Positions 102 through 12,227 of a stretch of DNA of 12,227 nt are shown piece after piece. Numbering within the stretch: position 1 is the first letter of the stretch; each line of letters begins with the position of its first letter. This stretch comes from an uncultured Lachnospiraceae bacterium (GTDB taxonomy: Bacteria > Bacillota > Clostridia > Lachnospirales > Lachnospiraceae), in contig UQVK01000109.1 in the NCBI GenBank assembly GCA_900544445.1, positions 1-12,227 on the forward strand, given 5' to 3'. A model generated the notes under the pieces. It did not search any database. It worked only from the letters and a program-made list of their open reading frames with translations, and had not been told where the DNA came from. A program made the translations under genes and the position numbers.

Positions 102-1876
102 ATGTTAAAAACACTTTTGAGGAAGATCGGGAAATACCGACGCGATACCCTGCTCGCCCCGTTTTTCACCGCGCTTGAGGTGGTGATGGAGGTTCTGATC
201 CCGTTCATCACAGCCTCTCTCATCGATTATGGCATAGAAGCCAGAGATTTTCAGAAGGTGCTGCAATACGGCGGCCTCATGCTTCTCATGGCTTTCTGCA
301 GCCTGGCCTTCGGCATTCTGGCAGGGACCTGCGCCGCGAAGGCGTCCTGCGGCTTCGCCTGCAACCTGAGGGACAGCATCTATGAAAAGATACAGGAATT
401 TTCTTTTTCCAACATCGACAAATACAGCACCGCAGGGCTGGTGACCCGGATGACCACGGATGTGACCAACATCCAGAACGCCTGGCAGATGATCCTGCGC
501 GTCGCGGTTCGGGCCCCGCTCATGCTGGTCTGCAGCATGGTAATGTGCTTCTTCATCAGCCCCGCCTGTCCGCCATTTTTCTGATCGCCATTCTTTTTCT
601 GGGAGCCATTCTGATTTTTATCATGCTGAAAACCACGAAGATTTTTGATGAGGTCTTCCGCAGATATGACGACCTGAACGCCAGCGTGCAGGAAAATGTC
701 TCCGCCATCCGCGTGGTAAAAGCCTTCGTCCGGGAAGGCTTTGAAAATGAAAAATTCCGGAACGCAACTGACCGGCTTTACCGGCTTTTCGTCAAAGCCG
801 AAGGGATTCTGGCGCTGAATAACCCGGTGATGATGCTGGTGGTGTACGGCTGCATCATCGCTCTGTCCTGGTTCGGCGCGCAGTTCATCGTGGCGGGGAA
901 TCTCACCACCGGCAATCTGACCTCCCTGTTCAGCTATGTGATGAGCGTTCTTATGTCCCTGATGATGCTCTCCATGATCTTCGTCATGATCACCATGAGC
1001 GCCGCCAGCGCGAAACGTATCGCGGAGGTGCTGAATGAGGTTTCCGATCTGGCAAGCCCTGAGGAACCGGAGACCGCGCTTGCAGACGGAAGCATCGATT
1101 TCAACCATGTGAACTTCTCCTATCAGCACGGAAGCGGGGAAGAAACCCTGCACGACATCGACCTGCACATCCGCTCGGGAGAGACCATCGGCATCATCGG
1201 CGGGACGGGATGCGGCAAATCCAGCCTGGTCAGCCTGATCAGCCGCCTGTACGACGTGAGCACAGGCAGCGTCTGCGTGGGCGGAAAGGACGTCCGCTCC
1301 TATGATCTGGAGGCCCTTCGGAATCAGGTGGCCGTAGTTCTGCAGAAAAATGTCCTCTTCTCCGGCACCATCCTGGATAACCTGCGCTGGGGAAAGGAGG
1401 ATGCCACCCTGAAGGAATGTAAGGAAGCCTGCCGCCAGGCCTGTGCGGATGAGTTCATCGACCGTTTTCCGGATGGATATGACACCTGGATCGAGCAGGG
1501 CGGAACCAATGTATCCGGCGGCCAGAAGCAGCGCCTGTGCATCGCCCGCGCTCTTTTGAAAAAGCCGAAAATTCTGATCCTGGACGACTCCACCAGCGCC
1601 GTTGACACGGCTACGGACGCAAGGATCAGAGGATTTTTCTCCCAGAAAATCCCCGGAACCACCAAACTGATCATCGCACAGCGGATTTCCAGCGTGCAGG
1701 ACGCCGACCGGATCCTGGTGCTGGAAAACGGCTCAGTCAATGGTTTCGATACCCATGAGAGGCTTCTGGAAAACAACCGGATCTATCAGGAAATCTATGA
1801 AGCCCAGACAAAGGGAGGCGGGGACTTTGACCAGCCCGCTCCCGCAGAAGAAGGAAAGGAAGGTGAAATTGCATGA
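102..1876 (+). pseudogene. ABC exporter subunit 1 (TMD-NBD, degenerate ATPase site), frameshifted
   Basis: This is a half-size ABC exporter: six-helix membrane domain first, nucleotide-binding domain second. It starts at ATG 102 behind AGGAGG (91-96). The frame 102-584 encodes the first membrane helices through FFISP and then hits a stop. The frame continuing from about 560 (RLSAIFLIAI) encodes everything else to TGA 1876. One extra C in the CCCC run at 560-563 would join them into about 591 residues, the normal length for the family. NBD motifs are Walker A GGTGCGKS (1199-1222), signature VSGGQ (1511-1525) and Walker B ILIL-D with Asp instead of Glu at 1586-1588. The H-loop His is replaced by Gln (1679-1681). 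This is the pattern of the non-catalytic partner in heterodimeric exporters such as BmrC/YheI or TM287. It overlaps the next gene by 4 nt. Substrate is unknown; drug or peptide export is inferred. The frameshift may be real or a homopolymer sequencing error. Confidence 0.85.
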
Positions 1877-3780
1877 CGCAGGCAAAAACCATTTCACAGG
1901 CTCCCGCCGGCCGGAAAACCGATTACAGACAGCTTGGCAAGACCATGGGCCGGGTGCTCGGATACATGCTGCAAAACTATAAATTTTCTTTTATCCTGGT
2001 CGTCCTCTGCATTATTGGCTCCGCCCTGGCGACGCTTCAGGGCACGCTTTTCATGCAGAGCCTGATCGACGATTACATTGTTCCGTTGACACAAATGGAA
2101 CAGCCCGATTTCTCTCCCCTGGCCGGAGCGCTTTTTCGGGTGGGCTGCGTCTACGCCGCCGGCATCCTGTGCGCCTACGCCTACAACCGGATCATGGTCA
2201 ACGTGAGCCAGGGAACCATGTGCTCTTTGCGCGTCGAACTGTTTGAACACATGGAATCTCTTCCCATCCGGTATTTTGACACCCATGCCCATGGCGATAT
2301 CATGTCCGTCTACACCAATGACGTGGACACCCTGCGCCAGCTCATAAGCCAGAGCATTCCGCAGCTCGTCAACTCCGCCGTGACCATTGTGACCACCTTT
2401 ATCAGTATGTTCCTTCTGGATCTTCCCCTTACCCTGATCACCCTGGCCATGGTCTGCCTCATGCTCCTGGTCACCTCCCGCATCGCGGGAAAATCGGCCG
2501 TGTATTTCGCCAGACAGCAGAAGGATCTGGGCGCGGTCAACGGCTATATCGAGGAAATGATGAACGGACAGAAGGTGGTCAAGGTGTTCTGCCACGAACA
2601 GAAGAGCCTGGAGCAGTTCCGCGCGCTGAATGAACAGCTTTGGGACAGTGCGAAAAAGGCCAACATTTTCTCCAACATCACCATGCCGGTCAACGGCAAC
2701 CTGGGCAATATCAGCTATGTGCTCTGCGCCGTAGTGGGAGCCCTTCTCGCTCTGAACGGCTATCTGGGCCTGACCCTGGGCACCCTGGTTTCCTTCCTGA
2801 CCCTGAATAAAAACTCCACCCAGCCCGTCAGCCAGATCAGCCAGCAGACCAACAGCATCGTCATGGCAATGGCCGGCGCGCAGCGGATCTTCGACCTGCT
2901 GGATGAAGCGCCCGAGGAAGACAACGGCTATGTGGAGCTGGTCAACGCAAAAGAAAATCCGGACGGAAGCCTGACGGAAACCCCAGAGCGCACCGGCCTG
3001 TGGGCCTGGCGGCATCCCCATAAGGCGGAGGGCACCGTCACCTACACGAAGCTGGCCGGAGACGTGACCTTCAACGATGTGGATTTTGGCTATGATCCGG
3101 ACAAAATCGTGCTGCACAACATCAGGCTGTACGCCACGCCGGGCCAGAAGATCGCCTTTGTGGGAAGCACCGGAGCCGGAAAAACCACCATCACCAATCT
3201 GATCAACCGTTTCTATGACATCGCAGACGGAAAGATCCGCTATGACGGCATCAAAATCAACAAAATCAAAAAGCCCGACCTGCGGCGCTCCCTCGGCATG
3301 GTGCTTCAGGACACTCATCTGTTCACCGGCACCGTCATGGACAACATCCGCTACGGCCGCCTGGACGCCACTGATGAGGAATGCATCGCCGCCGCGAAGC
3401 TGGCAAACACGGACGGCTTCATCCGCAGGCTTCCGGAAGGGTATCAGACCGTTCTCACCGGAGACGGCTCCAACTTAAGCCAGGGCCAGAGGCAGCTTCT
3501 TTCCATTGCAAGGGCCGCCGTGGCCGATCCCCCGGTGCTGATTCTGGACGAGGCCACCTCTTCCATCGACACCCGCACCGAGACGCTGGTTCAGGAGGGC
3601 ATGGACCGGCTGATGAAGGGCCGCACCACCTTCGTGATCGCCCACCGCTTTTCCACCGTCAAAAACGCGGACTGCATCATGGTTCTGGAACAGGGACGGA
3701 TCATCGAGCGCGGCACCCACGACCAGCTTCTGGAGGAAAAGGGCCGGTATTACCAGCTTTACACCGGAAAGCGGGCATAA
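1873..3780 (+). CDS. ABC exporter subunit 2 (TMD-NBD, catalytic), BmrD/YheH-like
   Basis: This is the 635-residue partner of the preceding subunit. The start ATG overlaps the upstream TGA (ATGA), with AAGGAAGGTGA just before it, so translation is probably coupled. An N-terminal membrane domain with about six helices fills residues 30-345. A hydrophilic insert of about 40 residues (around 355-395, with WAWRHPH) then precedes the NBD; such an insert is typical of the BmrD/YheH-type subunit. NBD motifs are Walker A GSTGAGKT (431-438), non-canonical signature LSQGQ (535-539), Walker B LIL-D559 with catalytic Glu560, D-loop SSID, and H-loop His591. The two subunits together would form one hydrolytic and one degenerate ATP site. 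The role is inferred to be multidrug or peptide efflux at the cytoplasmic membrane; no substrate can be read from the sequence. If the partner is truly frameshifted, this subunit would be orphaned. Confidence 0.93.
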   Translation: MTQAKTISQAPAGRKTDYRQLGKTMGRVLGYMLQNYKFSFILVVLCIIGSALATLQGTLFMQSLIDDYIVPLTQMEQPDFSPLAGALFRVGCVYAAGILCAYAYNRIMVNVSQGTMCSLRVELFEHMESLPIRYFDTHAHGDIMSVYTNDVDTLRQLISQSIPQLVNSAVTIVTTFISMFLLDLPLTLITLAMVCLMLLVTSRIAGKSAVYFARQQKDLGAVNGYIEEMMNGQKVVKVFCHEQKSLEQFRALNEQLWDSAKKANIFSNITMPVNGNLGNISYVLCAVVGALLALNGYLGLTLGTLVSFLTLNKNSTQPVSQISQQTNSIVMAMAGAQRIFDLLDEAPEEDNGYVELVNAKENPDGSLTETPERTGLWAWRHPHKAEGTVTYTKLAGDVTFNDVDFGYDPDKIVLHNIRLYATPGQKIAFVGSTGAGKTTITNLINRFYDIADGKIRYDGIKINKIKKPDLRRSLGMVLQDTHLFTGTVMDNIRYGRLDATDEECIAAAKLANTDGFIRRLPEGYQTVLTGDGSNLSQGQRQLLSIARAAVADPPVLILDEATSSIDTRTETLVQEGMDRLMKGRTTFVIAHRFSTVKNADCIMVLEQGRIIERGTHDQLLEEKGRYYQLYTGKRA

Positions 3781-5652: not shown

Positions 5653-6324
5653 ATGGCGAATATTATAGCAGTTGATGATGACGCTGATGTACGCAGTCTT
5701 TTAACGACAGCCCTGCAGCGTGACGGCCATATCGTGAAAACATTCTCGGCAGGCAGCGGTCTGACGGCAGAAAACTGCAGATGGGCGGACTGTATTTTAC
5801 TGGATGTGATGATGCCGGGCGAGGACGGATTTGCCGCCTGCCAGCGCATCCGGGCCATTGCTGACTGTCCGATTTTATTCCTCACTGCCAGAACCGAAGA
5901 AGCCGATATTATCCGGGGACTCGGTCTGGGAGGAGACGATTATCTGATGAAGCCTTTTCGCGTCACAGAGCTCAGGGCCAGAGTCAACGCCCACCTCAGG
6001 CGGGAAAGGCGTACGCCCCACAGCCGGATCAGAAAAGGGGAACTGGATTTTGATCTGAAGGAACGTCTGGTCTATCACAATGAGATCCCCATCCGGCTGA
6101 CCCGCAGCGAATATTCGATCTGCGAGCATCTGGCAATCCACGCCGGGCAGACCTTCTCCAAGGAACAGATCTATGAAGCGGTGTTCGGCTTTGACGGAAC
6201 AGCGGACGACTCCGCCATCACAGAGCACATCAAAAATATCCGGGCGAAGCTGCGCGCAGCCGGGTGCGAGCCGATCGAAACGGTATGGGGGGTAGGATAT
6301 AAATGGAAAAGAGAGCAGCAGTAA
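5653..6324 (+). CDS. OmpR/PhoB-family response regulator
   Basis: The protein has 223 residues. A receiver domain fills residues 1-115, with acidic pocket Asp8-Asp9, phospho-acceptor Asp51 (ILLDVMMPG), Thr78 and Lys100 (KPF). A winged-helix DNA-binding domain follows (about 125-220, ending in VWGVGYKWK). AAAGGAGA (5638-5645) precedes ATG 5653. It should be phosphorylated by the kinase whose gene overlaps its end by 22 nt, then bind direct repeats near target promoters. Candidate targets in view are its own operon (repeats at 4592-4619) and the nearby exporter. The arrangement resembles antimicrobial-peptide-sensing systems of the SpaR/NsrR kind, but the signal cannot be read from the sequence. 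Confidence 0.95.
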   Translation: MANIIAVDDDADVRSLLTTALQRDGHIVKTFSAGSGLTAENCRWADCILLDVMMPGEDGFAACQRIRAIADCPILFLTARTEEADIIRGLGLGGDDYLMKPFRVTELRARVNAHLRRERRTPHSRIRKGELDFDLKERLVYHNEIPIRLTRSEYSICEHLAIHAGQTFSKEQIYEAVFGFDGTADDSAITEHIKNIRAKLRAAGCEPIETVWGVGYKWKREQQ

Positions 6325-7712
6325 AAAACAGACGCCGGGGGCTCGGTTTAAATGCCCTTTTCTGGCGCTACCTGATTACATCCGGCAGCCTCGCAGCAAC
6401 GCTGTGCGTCCTGTGGCTGGTCCTGTTTAACATCCTCGTCAATATGGGGTTCGTCATGTCCGCATATACCGCTGTCAGAGGTCTGACGGAAACAGAACGT
6501 TTGCTGCAGGAGCAGACGATATTCGATCCGGAAGCCATTCCCCATTTCTACGAGTGGGCACTGGTGGAGAACGGTGAGATTACTGACAGCAATATGAATC
6601 AGAAGCAGCTGGAATATGCCCGCAGGGAACTGTCCGGTTATTCCGCTCCTCACGGATGGTTCTATTCCCAGTATTTCCACCTCGTACCCCTGCAAAACGG
6701 ACAAACCGTTATGCTGGAATACGACTACTCCGTCTGTTATGCCGATCCGGTTTTGAATGACATCCTGCCGGATTTTCAGACGGTTTATATCGGGCTGCTG
6801 CTGGCGCTTCTCCTGACGTTAATCGGACTGTGCACCGGACACTATACCAGAATTCTCCGAAAGGATACGCAGACCATTGCGGACGCCTGTGAAATGGTGC
6901 GCAGCCGCAGTCTGGATATGCCCCTGGACGGACAGGCCCGTGTAAAGGAGCTGCAGGCAGCTCTCGCCACGATTGAAACCCTGCGCGGGGAGCTATCCCA
7001 TTCCCTGAAAGAACAGTGGACTGCAGAACAGCGCAAAAATGAAGCGCTCGCCGCCCTGACACATGATCTCAAAACACCGCTTACCGTTATCGGCGGAAAT
7101 GCGGATCTGCTTGCGGAGGATGATCTGACACAGCAGCAGAAAGAACTGGTCCTGGCAATCCTGCGTAATACCGGCCATGCCGAAGATTATGTGAAACGTC
7201 TGCGCGAGGTAACGGCAGGAGCTCTTTTTCCCTCAAACCGGGAAAAAATCCCTGCTCGTGAGCTGTTATCCGCCTTTATCCAGCAGGGCCATGATTTATC
7301 TGTGCAAAAAGGCCAGGCATTTGCTGTAGATCGTTCTGTCACAGTATTTTCAGCTGAAACTGTGGAAATTGAAAAAAATGAAGTGCTGCGGGCCATGGAG
7401 AATCTGCTCAGCAATGCGTTCCGCTTTACACCACCCGGGGGAACTGTCCTCCTGGGTGTGGAGTTACAGTCCGGGCGGGTGGGTTTCTGGATTCAGGACA
7501 GCGGCCCGGGATTTTCGCCTGAAGCGCTGGCAAAGGCCGGAAAAACCTTCTATACGGAAGATGGCAGCCGCCCTCAGGGCGGACATATGGGCATGGGCCT
7601 TTACTTTGCATCGCAGATCGCGCAGAAACACGGAGGATGCCTGTCTCTTGAGAATACCTCCACGGGCGGAAAGGCCTGCCTGTGGCTGAAGCTGAAACGG
7701 GAGATTGGGTGA
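6303..7712 (+). CDS. Sensor histidine kinase (HisKA-HATPase)
   Basis: The protein has 469 residues and starts inside the end of the response-regulator gene (ATG 6303, GGGGGGTAGG just upstream). A short cytoplasmic tail leads to TM1 (about 24-46), an extracytoplasmic sensor of roughly 110 residues, and TM2 (about 161-180). The HisKA domain has His254 in the LTHDLKTPLT motif. The ATPase domain shows N-box Asn371 (ENLLSNAFRF), G1 box DSGPGF from Asp399, and a G2 box with GMGLYFA around 429. All catalytic motifs are intact. It is the membrane sensor partner of the response regulator and probably controls the TraX operon and perhaps the exporter upstream. The sensor domain is of unknown ligand type; the medium size and HDLKTPLT motif resemble lantibiotic or cell-envelope-stress kinases, which is only a similarity of layout. 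Confidence 0.94.
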   Translation: MEKRAAVKNRRRGLGLNALFWRYLITSGSLAATLCVLWLVLFNILVNMGFVMSAYTAVRGLTETERLLQEQTIFDPEAIPHFYEWALVENGEITDSNMNQKQLEYARRELSGYSAPHGWFYSQYFHLVPLQNGQTVMLEYDYSVCYADPVLNDILPDFQTVYIGLLLALLLTLIGLCTGHYTRILRKDTQTIADACEMVRSRSLDMPLDGQARVKELQAALATIETLRGELSHSLKEQWTAEQRKNEALAALTHDLKTPLTVIGGNADLLAEDDLTQQQKELVLAILRNTGHAEDYVKRLREVTAGALFPSNREKIPARELLSAFIQQGHDLSVQKGQAFAVDRSVTVFSAETVEIEKNEVLRAMENLLSNAFRFTPPGGTVLLGVELQSGRVGFWIQDSGPGFSPEALAKAGKTFYTEDGSRPQGGHMGMGLYFASQIAQKHGGCLSLENTSTGGKACLWLKLKREIG

Positions 7713-7864: not shown

Positions 7865-8829
7865 CAATCCGAAAATCCTTTTCTGAAATCATTGTTCTCT
7901 ATTGTTCCTGATTAAACTATTCTACCAAACTTTTGAAACATGCTATTCCCGCATCAAATAACCTTTTCCATTAAAGATTGAGGTAAACCATGGACATAAC
8001 AGATTTAATTGGCGAAACAACTGAATATGACAAAAAACTGCTTCTGGAAGAAAAACGGCCCCGAAGCTGGCTGAAAAGTGTAAGCGCTTTTGCAAACGGC
8101 TCCGGCGGCATGCTGATTTTCGGAGTTTCAAACGACAATATTCTGGCCGGCCTTGAGAATGCCGAAATTGTCTCAGAAAAAATCAGTGAAATTATGAAAG
8201 TCAAAATGGATCCTGTTCCGGATTTTCAACTTGAAATACACAGACAATCCGGAAAGGAATTTATCATTCTGCGGGTTACCAGCGGTCAGGAAACGCCGTA
8301 TTATTATGTAGGTGACGGGAACCATATCGCATATGTACGCATCGGTAATGAGAGTGTTCCCGCTGACAGTATCACGCTGAAACGGCTTGTTCTTCACGGC
8401 AGCAATACCACCTTTGACAGTCTGGTCTCTCCATATCCCTTCCGAAATTATTCTTTTACCAGACTTTGCTCCGCATATCTGAAGCGTACAGGTACTGAAT
8501 TATCGGATTCCGATTTTATTTCTTTCGATCTCGCTGATGAAAGCGGAATGCTGACCTATGCCGGAGCTCTGCTGGCTGATGAATCGCCAGTCCGGTATTC
8601 CCGGCTGTTCTGTACCCGCTGGTACGGGCTGGATAAAGCTTCCGGTGTCATGGAGGCACTGGATGACAAGGAATACAGCGGCTCACTGATCTCGTTGCTG
8701 CAGGATGGAATGGCCTTTATCCAGAACAATACCAAAAAACGCTGGAAAAAGACCGGAACAGGAAGAGTTGAAATGCCCGAATATCCGGAGCAGGCCGTTC
8801 ATGAATGCCTTGTTAACGCATTGATTCAC

Positions 8830-8855
8830 CGGTTATGGAAAGCTTTCCATAACCG
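8830..8855. repeat. Perfect 26-bp palindrome at the element end (putative crossover core)
   Basis: The half-site CGGTTATGGAAAG (8830-8842) is followed immediately by its exact reverse complement (8843-8855), centred on AAGCTT. The AlbA_2 frame loses its homology exactly at the first bases of this palindrome. Two inverted recombinase-binding half-sites at the junction are what a tyrosine recombinase core site looks like, although a 6-8 bp spacer is usual and here the whole centre is symmetric. Confidence 0.8.
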
Positions 8856-8857
8856 AT

Positions 8858-8888
8858 GTTATGCAAAGTTAATAGTTATGCAAAGTTA
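8858..8888. repeat. Tandem 14-bp direct repeats (arm-type recombinase sites)
   Basis: GTTATGCAAAGTTA occurs at 8858-8871 and again at 8875-8888, three bases apart (17-bp period). Its first 11 bases match the half-site of the neighbouring palindrome except for one base (GTTATGC versus GTTATGG). They look like additional recombinase-binding sites next to the core. Confidence 0.8.
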
Positions 8889-8941
8889 CTGCCGAATCCA
8901 TTGGTTTTATGGGAAATCCGGCAGTTTTTACTTTGCATAAA
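8876..8941. repeat. Inverted repeat pair forming the inner element end
   Basis: TTATGCAAAGTTACTGCCG on the left (8876-8894) is matched in reverse complement by CGGCAGT, TTTT, ACTTTGCATAA on the right (8919-8940). The left and right arms have identical 7-bp and 11-bp blocks with a spacer differing by four bases. The right arm contains a fifth, inverted, copy of the 11-bp motif (10 of 11 bases, 8931-8941). It separates the core from the last recombinase stop at 8952. Confidence 0.75.
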
Positions 8942-8951
8942 TTTTAGCATC

Positions 8952-9959
8952 TCACAGGTTGTTTTTCAACCAGTCAATCAAATCCTCCTTTTGTTTTTGG
9001 CTGTATTTATGCGCTGTTTTCACAGAGGCGCTATGCTTTTTCAACTGTTCTTCCTTAATCTTTGGATTTGTTTTCGCATAAATCTCCGTTGTGACTACAG
9101 ATGTATGTCCCAGCAGATCACGAATGTATATCAGGTTCACACCAGCCTCTAACAAATGCATTGCCTTGCTATGCCGGAAACAGTGGTTTGTTATCCTGCC
9201 TCTAAACAAATCCGGCCGCAGTCTCCGGGCTGTTGACACGTACTTATCTATGATGTACTGTATTCCTGCACGGGTGAGTTTCTCACCTTTGCGGTTTACA
9301 AACAATGGCTCGTCGGCATTTCTCCTGTTACACCGGTGGATGTAATTCCTGACTATCGCGGCAGCATCCGCGTTGACAGGAACGAGCCTTGTTTTATTTC
9401 CCTTCCCATGAAGTTCTGCTGTAACAACAGATGAAAAGCGGATATCTGAAGGAACAAGGTCGATCAGTTCCTGCACTCTGGCCCCTGTCTCATACAGTAA
9501 TACCAGAATTGCCAGGTCCCGCAGCTGGTCATCTTTTTTCTGGTCAGGAATCGAAAAAAGCAGCCGCACTTCTTCTACGCTCATATAATTCACAGATTTA
9601 ACCAGGGCTTTCTTAAATGGAACAGAAAGTATCTGCGTACACTGTTCAAACCCGGCAGGGTCGCGGTATTGGAGATATCGGAAGAAAGCATGTATTGCTG
9701 CCAGCCGCTGGTTTCTTGTGTTAATACTAACTTCGCGTACTTCTTCCAGATAAACAAGGAACCTTTCGATCCGGCCGGCAGTGAATTCTTTGTATTCCAG
9801 CTTTTCAGGTGGCAATCGGTATTCTGTTTTATAGAACTCCAGCAGTTGAACAAACGTGTCCCGGTAAGAGCGAATGGTATTGGGAGAGGCCGCGGTCTGT
9901 TTTGGAAGATATTCCGCAAAATATTTCGTCAGATGATAGGAAAAAACATTTTTATTCAC
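8952..9959 (-). CDS. Tyrosine recombinase, third gene of the trio
   Basis: This is a XerC/D-like site-specific recombinase of 335 residues if started at GTG 9959. That start overlaps the upstream stop in GTGAATAA and has AAGGCGGTG upstream; the alternative ATG 10031 would overlap the neighbour by 80 bases and adds residues unlike the family. A SAM-like core-binding domain occupies about 5-105 and the catalytic domain 125-300. Active-site residues are Arg161 (ETGARVQEL), Lys186 (HGKGNKTR), His259 and Arg262 (HCFRHS), His285 (LGHTS) and Tyr294 (TEIYAK), so it should be active. It ends 11 bp from the terminal repeats. Within RIT-like elements the third recombinase acts with the other two to cut and join DNA at the element ends; which one does the catalysis is not known from the sequence. 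Confidence 0.92.
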   Translation of the reverse strand: MNKNVFSYHLTKYFAEYLPKQTAASPNTIRSYRDTFVQLLEFYKTEYRLPPEKLEYKEFTAGRIERFLVYLEEVREVSINTRNQRLAAIHAFFRYLQYRDPAGFEQCTQILSVPFKKALVKSVNYMSVEEVRLLFSIPDQKKDDQLRDLAILVLLYETGARVQELIDLVPSDIRFSSVVTAELHGKGNKTRLVPVNADAAAIVRNYIHRCNRRNADEPLFVNRKGEKLTRAGIQYIIDKYVSTARRLRPDLFRGRITNHCFRHSKAMHLLEAGVNLIYIRDLLGHTSVVTTEIYAKTNPKIKEEQLKKHSASVKTAHKYSQKQKEDLIDWLKNNL

Positions 9960-10962
9960 CCATGTCACCGCCTTCCTCTTTAGGGAAAATCCCCGGATGG
10001 CAGGAAGCCGACTGTTCCAGTATCCCGCCAAAGTGTTCTTCTAACAGCCGCAGGTAGTACTCCGTTTCTGTGATGTGCCTGTGCCCAAGATAACGCGACA
10101 GAAGTGGAAGGGATGTGTACAGATCAAACCCTTTCTCCTGCATCTGCTCCAGTGCCCTCACACAGAATGTATGGCGTATATCATGCAGACGTTGCCGTCC
10201 GCCGTCTTTTCGCGGAGGGATCTGGGCATCGGCTAAAAGCTGATGGAATCGGCTGTAAAGGATGGATTCACAGTAACGCCTGCTCTTCGTCCCGTGCAGG
10301 AAGTAGCCATCCTGGTTTGCAGATGGCAGATATTTACCCTTGTAACATTGCAGTTCCAACAGGAGGGTATCGGATGCGACAACTATACGGCTCACATCAT
10401 TTTTCCCGTTCAGGATACAGATTTTACCATTCCCGAAATCAACATCCTGGATCCGGAGATTGAGGACCTCTGATTTTCTGAATCCACAGCAGTAATACAA
10501 TAGCATTGCCATCCGGAATGCATCATTCTTATACCCCGGCGATTTTTCGCAGTATTCATGAAGTATGCGGAACATCTGGCAGATTTCCTCTTCCGTAAAA
10601 ACATATGGGATAAAATCTCTTTTAAAGATGCGGTTATCATCCTGTCCGGTATAAATGTCAGGATAACCACATGATACAAGGTATTTCGCAAAACCGCGTA
10701 TGGCAGTCTGACGTCTCTGAATGTTTTGTTCTTTTTCCGGTGGCTTGTGGGAAGTCCATTCCCCGTACATTTCACGGGTGATCCGTATATCCATAACGCC
10801 CATATCTTTAAAGAACAGGTCCATCTCCCTCAGCCGGTAAACAATCGGATCCCCAAACTTATAACCCTGTGCTCTTTTGTAAGAGATATATTCCGGGATC
10901 AGTTCCCGGAATGGCCCTGTAAACTGCGGAAGTCCATTCACTTTTTTCATTGGTTTAGACAC
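9952..10962 (-). CDS. Tyrosine recombinase, second gene of the trio
   Basis: The protein has 336 residues. GTG 10962 is preferred because GGAGGTG lies four bases upstream and it overlaps the previous stop as GTGTCTAA; ATG 10950 is a possible but poorly spaced alternative. The N-terminal domain (about 15-105) is a core-binding fold and the catalytic domain spans 120-310. Active-site residues are Arg162 (CCGFRKSEV), Lys187 (NGKNDVSR), His260 and Arg263 (LHDIRHTF), His294 (YLGHRH) and Tyr303 (EYYLR), all present. It belongs to the integrase group with TEEEICQMF-type linkers, found as the middle gene of recombinase trios. The 8-nt overlaps on both sides imply coupled translation and roughly equal amounts of the three proteins. 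Confidence 0.92.
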   Translation of the reverse strand: MSKPMKKVNGLPQFTGPFRELIPEYISYKRAQGYKFGDPIVYRLREMDLFFKDMGVMDIRITREMYGEWTSHKPPEKEQNIQRRQTAIRGFAKYLVSCGYPDIYTGQDDNRIFKRDFIPYVFTEEEICQMFRILHEYCEKSPGYKNDAFRMAMLLYYCCGFRKSEVLNLRIQDVDFGNGKICILNGKNDVSRIVVASDTLLLELQCYKGKYLPSANQDGYFLHGTKSRRYCESILYSRFHQLLADAQIPPRKDGGRQRLHDIRHTFCVRALEQMQEKGFDLYTSLPLLSRYLGHRHITETEYYLRLLEEHFGGILEQSASCHPGIFPKEEGGDMGE

Positions 10963-12175
10963 GGGGCACCTCCAGTGAGAGTTCTTTCAGGTGGGTCTCA
11001 TCCACTGTAAGATAGATTTCGGTTGTCCGTGTACTGGAATGTCCCAGTATGTTTGCGATTGCACTGATGGGCACATTTTCCGACATCATGTTTGTTGCCA
11101 GGCTGTGCCGGAGGGCATGGGCCCATGATGTCTTCCTTCATAGTTAATGCCTGCTGTTTCCCATGCATTTTTCAACAAGATGGTATAGGGAAGCTGTGCT
11201 GTTAAACCTTGTGTATGGAGCATACATGGTGACAAAAATATATTCAGGGTCGGCGCTCTTATGGCGTCCATTTTTGATATAATCAAGCAGTGGATATTTC
11301 ACATCATCAGTCAGGGGAAGTGACAGAGGGTTCCCTGTTTTCTGCTGTTGATAATGGATTGTTCCTGTTTCCCAGTTGAGATCAGAAAATTTCAGCCTGA
11401 TCACGTCCCCGGCTCTCATGCCCAGGTATGCCAGAAGGCAGATCATGCTGTAGGCGCATTTGCCGGAAGGTGTTTCCGTATCAATGCAGGAAAGCATCTG
11501 TCCGATTTCCTCTTTCGAATAATAAGACAAAAGTTTATTACGGGGGTCTTTCCTGATTAATGGAAACATCTGCCTGCCGGAGTAAGGCGTATAGCCGCGC
11601 GAAAACATCCAGTCATAGATTTCACGGAGTACTGTTTTGATGCACCGGATCGTTGCAGGCGCATAAGATGTAAGACTGTTGATATATTCATGGGCAGACT
11701 GGAACGGGATATCCGTTGTTTTTAGAATGCCATTCTGTTCCAGATATTCGAAATACTTCACAAATATCCATAGCTTGCGTTCCCTGGAGTTCCGGCTTAA
11801 AGAAGTGGAATTGATCACATCGCGATATTCCAGAAAAAGTTCCCTGTAAATAAGAGGGATCTCCGTTGTGAAACCTTTCTGATGTGTCTTGAGATAATTC
11901 CCGGATTCCTCAAATTCGATCAGGATCATAAGGGGACGGCGCAGCACGGATTGCATCGGTGCTGTAAGGTTGTAGTAATCAAAGCCAAAGCAATCCCGCA
12001 CAAAAGTAGAAGCTATGGGAACTGTAATCTCAGGAATCTTGTTCTTGAGACAGTAGTTCTCAAAATGCCCCAGAATCCAACGGGTATTGTTAAGGACTGT
12101 GTTGCTGTAACCATCCGCTTTTAGCTTTTCGTACAGAGCAGCGGCTATCTCTGGTAAATCTTTTGTTTTCATCAT
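10955..12175 (-). pseudogene. Tyrosine recombinase, first gene of the trio, two compensating frameshifts
   Basis: ATG 12175 (or the adjacent ATG 12172) follows AAGGAGG. The intact protein would have about 406 residues. Residues 1-338 read normally, with Arg254 (LGMRAGD) and Lys279 (QQQKTGN). Then an extra G in the GGG at 11162-11160 shifts the frame and leads to TAA 11146-11144. Homology (ETAGINYEGRHHGP) continues in another frame. A missing C in the run at 11121-11119 returns it to the original frame, which runs on as HALRHS, LGHSS and TEIYLTVD to TAA 10957-10955. The catalytic His (11119-11117), Arg (11110-11108), His (11041-11039) and Tyr (11014-11012) all lie in this last part. So all catalytic residues exist but are cut off as written. 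The two errors cancel, which makes sequencing or assembly error quite likely. It overlaps the second recombinase by 8 nt. Confidence 0.85.
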
Positions 12176-12227
12176 GAAAACCTCCTTGAGTTTATTACAA
12201 CCGATCCTAATTGGCTGCCTCTTGAAG
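12176..12227 (-). promoter_or_regulatory. Leader and possible promoter region of the recombinase trio
   Basis: The 52 bases upstream of the first recombinase hold its ribosome site AAGGAGG and, on the minus strand, a TAATAA-like stretch (around 12195-12200) that could be a -10 element. The -35 would lie near or beyond the window edge. I see no copy of the terminal GTTATGSAAAG motif here, so the second end of the element must lie further right. Confidence 0.3.

Follow-up and report, generated by a model that had tools for sequence, protein, structure and literature searches.

Recombinase-in-trio elements carry a palindrome that follows one half of the interrupted gene, suggesting an attachment site with two cores

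The recombinase-in-trio (RIT) elements of Van Houdt et al. 2012 (PMC3414803) consist, in the sections of that report which define them, of three adjacent tyrosine recombinase genes that belong to distinct families, stand in a fixed order and occupy about 3.5 kb, with an inverted repeat and an overlapping palindrome flanking ritA and ritC; its section 11 remarks that it is hard to understand why three proteins should be needed. These elements occur in diverse taxa and their movement has been little studied, and a 2023 comparison (PMC10214605) marks them in a table as untested for target specificity, for the formation of an empty site and for movement. We report the analysis of a 12,227-nucleotide stretch of DNA from an uncultured Lachnospiraceae bacterium (assembly GCA_900544445.1, contig UQVK01000109.1; hereafter the window), in which an array of short motifs is the ritC end of a RIT element interrupting a Schlafen/AlbA_2 gene at its conserved His-Arg codons. 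From the comparison of this end with those of its relatives we consider it very probable that the palindrome (P) is the centre of a double-core attachment site (attP), which would offer two equivalent crossover sites and let the element integrate either way round into codons for conserved motifs.

Several other mobile elements resemble the RIT elements in part. Those of the Tn916/CTnDOT type use a single integrase together with Xis and have one core per att site, and are not known to have a palindromic double core of the kind proposed here. The likeness lies in a short crossover tract carried from the previous site, with inheritance of a heteroduplex type (as outlined in PMC5991714). The strand-biased circularizing elements (SEs) and the GInts also have several tyrosine recombinases per element, and the SEs a 6-bp spacer between their ends in the circle; they differ in having four core genes, with three recombinases or related proteins in GInts and two recombinases in SEs, in the single spacer of the SEs, which lies between motifs C and C', and in that no palindrome like P is mentioned for either in the relevant parts of PMC10214605 and PMC5385486. 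Tn554, as summarised in PMC10214605 and PMC3414803, likewise combines multiple tyrosine recombinases with a 6-bp footprint and target specificity, and differs in its TnpA, TnpB and TnpC, of which two are recombinases, one ordinary and one large. At the present locus there are three Phage_integrase genes, no TnpC-like gene is evident, and three frames of at least 140 codons lie on the coding strand of L001, a near-identical copy of the element on a 3878-bp contig of genome G001 with both ends visible. The features of the published RIT elements that recur here are the gene trio, its order, its size and the inverted repeat with a palindrome; that P stands on one side only, that 6-bp tracts border it, that orientation obeys a rule and that the target has a motif go beyond what the defining sections of PMC3414803 describe. 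The family and its palindrome are known and the logic of the attachment site was not found in the literature searched, which contained no identifiable account of a one-sided palindrome, a side rule or a 6-bp memory in RIT elements, although Ricker 2013 and Nielsen 2017 may cover part of the anatomy.

The array in the window is built from the 11-bp motif GTTATGSAAAG, found without mismatch at 8832-8842 (+), 8843-8853 (-), 8858-8868 (+) and 8875-8885 (+) and with one mismatch at 8931-8941 (-); these five copies lie where the original prediction, made from the letters of the window, had placed them, and the perfect 26-bp palindrome, at 8830-8855, and a second inverted repeat, ACTGCCG at 8888-8894 with CGGCAGT at 8919-8925, are present as well. 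At up to two mismatches the whole window holds 11 matches to the motif where 5.6 are expected, and at least 11 occur in 6 of 200 shuffles, so that the raw count is not beyond chance; the clustering and perfection of the four copies within 54 bp is. The half-site unit is better taken as 10 bp, TTATGNAAAG. Positions 8827-8858 form a 32-bp inverted repeat with one mismatched pair, and its perfect portion of 26 bp arises because a 20-bp palindrome has a 6-bp tract on either side and, in this element, the one tract is nearly the inverted copy of the other. The features in and around this end are as follows.

7990..8826, plus strand: 5' part of the Schlafen/AlbA_2 target gene, up to codons N-A-L-I (PF04326, E=8e-18)
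8827..8832, plus strand: crossover tract a, CACCGG, the target His-Arg codons
8833..8852, no strand: P, the 20-bp palindrome, two back-to-back half-sites, TTATGGAAAG and CTTTCCATAA; same position in relatives
8853..8858, minus strand: crossover tract b, CATCGG in the direction from h1 towards P, of the coupling type; CACACG in L001
8859..8868, plus strand: h1, the terminal half-site, ritC end of the element
8869..8875, plus strand: 7-bp spacer, mostly alike at both ends of one element (mean 5.9 of 7)
8876..8885, plus strand: h2, a tandem half-site copy with a 17-bp period
8888..8925, no strand: hairpin ACTGCCG..CGGCAGT between h2 and h3; several relatives also have a hairpin there
8931..8940, minus strand: h3, third half-site copy, directly past the ritC stop codon
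8952..10031, minus strand: ritC-type tyrosine recombinase (PF00589, E=4.7e-30)
9952..10962, minus strand: ritB-type tyrosine recombinase (PF00589, E=2.4e-19)
11144..12175, minus strand: ritA-type tyrosine recombinase, frame-disrupted here (PF00589, E=1.8e-10, partial)
8859..12227, minus strand: portion of the RIT element within the window; the ritA end lies outside and is seen in L001

The three adjacent recombinase genes lie on the minus strand in the RIT order A-B-C, with Phage_integrase matches in all three. RitC is 40.7% identical to the protein encoded third in a recombinase trio annotated on Cupriavidus necator pHG1, and its R-K-H-R-H-Y residues fall in invariant columns of an alignment of 14 sequences, from which L053 was left out by choice and L039 and L056 for their stop codons. 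The open reading frames of ritB and ritC overlap by 80 bp when each is counted from its first possible start, as compared with 4-8 bp in the definition of RIT elements. The ritA frame is disrupted over a short stretch in the window and open in L001; the disruption may be decay or an assembly error and, if real, may make the window copy non-autonomous. L001 measures 3463 bp between its outer h1 ends, its terminal repeat matches at 24 of 27 positions, and at either end the palindrome is present together with a 6-bp tract and two tandem half-sites at a distance of 17 bp, so that the array stands at both ends of a close relative, an outcome set beforehand as a test of the original prediction. The window differs from L001 at four scattered internal positions besides the disrupted ritA stretch, and in 3 of the 6 bases of tract b.

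The same anatomy was sought in RIT relatives, drawn from genomes in the same family and order as G001 (matches in 19 of 397 genomes in one scan and in 27 of 392 in another, from which 40 stretches were taken), in named genome contigs, in 36 viral-collection loci and in plasmid records. Viral contigs scanned with the RitC of the window alone gave no relative, the 36 loci being found with alignment A1, and a search for the pattern of P followed by a half-site turned up 2 loci. A script parsed 101 loci and accepted 66, of which L070 was dropped as a false match (its inverted repeat is internal to the element); the remaining 65 include L001 and five duplicates or near-duplicates (L077, L079, L088, L092, L093), which leaves 60 deduplicated loci. 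In all 65 the palindrome and half-site array recur with a constant anatomy: at one junction the order is target-[6 bp a]-P-[6 bp b]-h1-7 bp-h2, at the other target-[6 bp c]-h1-7 bp-h2, with P absent. The end that carries P varies by element, being the ritA end in some and the ritC end in others; P is found at the left end (LE) in 36 loci, at the right end (RE) in 25 and at both in 3, and in L056, unregistered by the script, it is seen by eye at both ends. Half-sites of h1, h2 and P have a common consensus, approximately T-T-A-T-G-N-A-A-A-G, whose positions 3 and 4 are nearly invariant. Named hosts of the parsed loci belong to the Bacillota, Pseudomonadota and Actinomycetota, and in a Bacteroides trio outside the parsed set (L061) P is visible by eye.

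For counts on elements with a single P we used a deduplicated set of 55, which excludes the five duplicates, L142 (incomplete c) and the both-end loci L001, L056, L152 and L153. At least 8 of 10 pairs of the palindrome match in 47 of these elements and 6 or 7 in the other 8, while random 20-mers from the same loci reach at least 8 pairs at a rate of 0.0007. A scan made independently of the palindrome found a terminal repeat of at least 22/27 in 40 loci, nine of them without a palindrome at that register; five of the nine have P at the proper register (L001, L058, L060, L077, L093), L082 has a degenerate 19-bp P by eye, L041 lies at a contig edge, L070 is the false match already mentioned and L007 has none.

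The placement of P follows the target and not the element. When 124 junctions, 66 of them with P, were compared by their translated flanks, all 47 pairs of homologous flanks that were aligned at the boundary agreed on whether P is present (24 from opposite element ends, one being L001 with itself, and 23 from the same end; the pairs are not mutually independent), and 18 off-register pairs outside this count agree too. The opposite-end pairs span five target families, including AlbA_2 (L039 and the window), the IS110 transposase and, in L065 and L159, what we take to be a group II intron reverse transcriptase; the two remaining families come mostly from viral-collection contigs, with L140 from a genome. 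The IS110 clade comprises 17 plasmid loci in both orientations; lists of 76 and 88 plasmid records for this clade supplied 12 stretches, picked by hand (L192 did not parse). Here P stands at 18 of 18 ends in the N-terminal half of the gene and is absent from 14 of 14 ends in the C-terminal half (11 identified by pattern and 3 by eye), and the two remaining ends lie in other DNA, without P. The original prediction had treated the palindrome as a fixed part of one end and the copies with G at the variable position as a complete core. It had not named the RIT family. Its view that the array is a recombination end, belongs to an element with three recombinases and has copies of a core-like and an arm-like kind is borne out, and the G or C does split the copies of this element into two classes; the palindrome, however, tracks one target half regardless of the direction of the element, and each G copy is one half-site only, paired across a 6-bp tract with the first C copy (8859-8868) or else with the target gene.

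P is imperfect in the IS110 clade, where 6 to 8 of its 10 pairs match, and this shows which way it points. The elements on Salipiger profundus pTPRO5 (L155) and pTPRO8 (L157) have the same three protein accessions and lie in identical IS110 copies in opposite orientations, and P is reversed relative to the IS110 gene, as one circle predicts. One circle each, LE-P-RE, fits 6 of 6 Salipiger and 7 of 7 Sinorhizobium medicae junctions examined, the copies being closely related within each set and not 13 independent tests. To judge by these asymmetric copies of P, both orientations fit one circle, LE-X-P-Y-RE (X and Y being 6-bp tracts), opened on either side of P.

Uninterrupted relatives of the target lack P, as the original prediction required. 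We found 22 such AlbA_2 loci in 19 of 200 genomes, one of which ran off its contig; all 21 readable ones run straight on from N-(A/G)-(L/F)-(I/V/A) through the six His-Arg bases to, mostly, Asp-Tyr, the residues after this point being His-Arg-(Asp/Asn/Ser/Gln)-Tyr. In 16 loci the distance was computed, and the P of the window is there at least 8 mismatches from any sequence within 60 bp; in the other 5 it was not seen by eye. Tract a of the window, CACCGG, encodes the same two residues as in the uninterrupted genes. Translated flanks, judged by eye, place the insertions in codons of conserved motifs: NALIHR-DY in AlbA_2, YVKPY-VK-xxK(N/T)DAxDAEA in IS110, and further GTPQGG-VISP, KGGVG-KTT, PDN-(L/M)KT, DYH-IAIDFQ and HQLR-H. 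We take these last to be reverse transcriptase (GTPQGG-VISP), ParA (KGGVG-KTT), IstA (PDN-(L/M)KT and DYH-IAIDFQ) and recombinase (HQLR-H), and the motif at L010 and L045 to be the EAQS motif of nucleases in the Rpn/PD-(D/E)XK family. Near-identical RIT copies occur in different targets or sites.

The 6-bp tracts appear to be inherited in the manner of Tn916 coupling sequences. Amongst the 55 single-P elements a equals c in 25, a equals b in 25 and b equals c in 17, with all three equal in 11 and none in 10; when a is shuffled against c, or against b, about 0.8 elements match on average, with maxima of 5 and 6 in 10,000. The three partial patterns are what a heteroduplex-like inheritance of either parent tract would predict. 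Three copies in the single-contig genome G511 have a=TCTAAA and b=CCCACA in common while c is TCTAAA, CATATA or CCGACT, the last in a ParA-like gene at, by eye, its Walker A codons; with the patterns in the 55 elements, these copies point to a tract inherited from the previous site. The G511 copies (L128, L129, L131) are of one RIT, without three full open frames, and look like a record of serial transposition.

We infer from these patterns a circular intermediate and a strand chemistry of the following kind. In the circle, LE-[X]-P-[Y]-RE, the LE and RE would each start with h1, and P, a 20-bp palindrome, would present two outward-pointing half-sites, so that each 6-bp tract between an h1 and a half of P would make a complete core and attP would thus contain two equivalent cores. 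Recombination of one core with a target of the form left arm-[6 bp]-right arm would bring P next to the left arm and h1 next to the right arm: use of core X would give left-P-RE..LE-right and use of core Y left-P-LE..RE-right, either orientation of the element being possible and P always lying on the same target side. Polarity would be set by the asymmetric 6-bp tract, aligned with matching target codons, and excision by a x c would give back both the intact gene and the circle, leaving b as a record of the earlier site. The arrangement supplies a two-core attP, an orientation rule, a memory tract and a target type, each of which is testable. If true, it would be an unusual form of tyrosine-recombinase integration, in which polarity is kept towards the target and given up for the element, and would explain why RIT elements interrupt conserved genes exactly at conserved motifs, where inteins likewise sit.

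The two orientations might instead arise after integration, by recombination of b with c, which would turn the inserted element in place and leave P where it was. Sites b and c have h in common and are inverted, so such a reaction is possible, and it would suit L001, both ends of which are joined to the same target half, as well as L089/L090 and L091/L092, between which P is found in both directions at the LE end. Because inversion in place leaves P unchanged, the reversal of P together with the element in L155 and L157, at the same site with identical flanks, counts against it, as do the Salipiger and S. medicae junctions, related copies though they are, in fitting one circle per set; we regard this explanation as improbable overall and, as the main source of the two orientations in the IS110 clade, judge it unlikely. 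A perfect palindrome without spacer is typical of operators, and P could accordingly be a regulatory site (a repressor operator or a terminator) or a part of the target. Hairpins beside the palindrome at both ends, of which that at the LE of L001 scores as terminator-like, speak for this; that P switches ends among otherwise alike elements and tracks the target half, that 6 bp separate it from h1 on one side and from the target on the other, and that it is absent from all 21 readable uninterrupted targets make it highly improbable. An artefact of assembly or parsing in short-read contigs is less credible still: many of the loci are on contigs of metagenome-assembled genomes or viral collections, and L001, with the same flank at both ends, is possibly chimeric, but the same rule is seen in records described as complete plasmids (L152, L153, L155-L157, L182-L188, L065, L159) and in the single contig of G511.

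A number of observations weigh against the double-core attP. Neither a circle nor a tandem junction of the form LE-P-RE was found in the loci covered, in a scan that required at least 7 of 10 pairs in P and that an imperfect P would escape. Of the 101 loci, 35 were not parsed (11 with one end beyond the contig, 1 without a ritC match and 23 without an accepted parse, some of which, L061, L071 and L072, show P by eye), acceptance of a parse leaned on a palindrome beside the inverted repeat, and the low palindrome score at the other end of single-P elements is true by definition. P is at neither end of L007, L189 and L190. The directions of P in L089/L090 and L091/L092 suggest that flipping of P or inversion in place also happens somewhere, and no single circle fits L153, whose two ends have different P sequences. 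The elements with P at both ends (L001, L056, L152, L153, L188) would need an extra step, namely recombination between copies. Finally, the left target arm matches h at 2.75 of 10 positions (shuffled 2.86) and the right target arm matches a P half at 2.52 of 10 (shuffled 2.25, standard deviation 0.13). Arms hardly like h or P imply that the target is chosen by something besides likeness to a half-site, and the idea that the arms are half-site lookalikes was dropped on these near-shuffled scores.

Amongst the both-end elements, L152, L153 and L188, in complete plasmid records, have their ends in the N-halves of two IS110 genes, and L191 is an ordinary form with the LE junction of L153 and the C-half at its RE; recombination between oppositely placed copies would explain the three. 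In L189 and L190 one flank is the IS110 C-half and the opposite flank is other DNA, and these two are possible reciprocal products of copies with P at both ends. The flanks of L001 are both the same AlbA_2 5' half, a flank search of its assembly matches that contig alone, and its target-side tracts are unlike (CATCGG and CACCGC), which points either to two different junctions in the sample or to a recombinant contig. At L056 (2600-6337) one flank falls within the 3' part of a ritC belonging to another RIT and the other within a second recombinase gene, both, by eye, near catalytic-tyrosine codons. L184, the small plasmid Salipiger pTPRO8 (11188 bp), is made up for the most part of two RIT copies in inverted arrangement, separated by IS110 N-half sequence.

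That three recombinases divide the labour between them, as was originally predicted, finds support of a statistical kind. Partial correlations between protein and site differences were computed for 51 elements with three open frames (5 without them being excluded). Differences in h2 and P follow RitC once RitA and RitB are removed (partial r 0.27 and 0.20; 1 and 3 of 300 permutations as high), with a weaker link of P to RitB (24 of 300), whilst tracts a and b and the P-side target arm follow RitA (0.16, 0.16 and 0.19; 0 of 300), and h1 has no clear preference (RitA 39, RitC 32 of 300). With distant pairs only, the RitC signal is kept (0.27, 0.22) and the RitA signal reduced (0.07 to 0.12), a check in which regression residuals are biased for near-identical pairs; in none of these figures is relatedness fully controlled. 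RitA has two core-binding domains and RitC an extra C-terminal helix, according to the relevant part of PMC8138268. The statistics favour RitC acting on half-sites and RitA on the target, which we offer as a suggestive lead. Joined to the double core, this would give a two-faced attP in which cores lie to either side of a floating 20-bp palindrome and a directional target is open to both orientations, worked by recombinases of which RitC would read the repeated half-sites in P and at the ends and RitA the target motifs, in DNA encoding conserved and often catalytic motifs; as a whole this composite is tentative, the balance falling slightly on the side of doubt. The motifs in question would be, as we take them, HRDY of AlbA_2, PQGG of reverse transcriptase, KGGVGKT of ParA, PDN of IstA and HxLRH of recombinases.

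At 3699-3737 of L001, just inside the ritA end, lies a terminator-like hairpin aimed into the element (1 found, 0.3 expected), placed as if blocking transcription that enters from the interrupted gene. A scan for intrinsic terminators found none at the ritC-side hairpin, whose loop exceeds the length allowed in the scan, and an intrinsic terminator there is thus unsupported by it. Further upstream in the window, and named by eye, are two ABC-transporter-like genes, the first (15-1876) split into the overlapping frames 15-584 and 545-1876 and the second, adjoining it, open at 1873-3780, and a two-component system at 5653-7712, in which a response regulator is followed by a sensor kinase in an overlapping frame.
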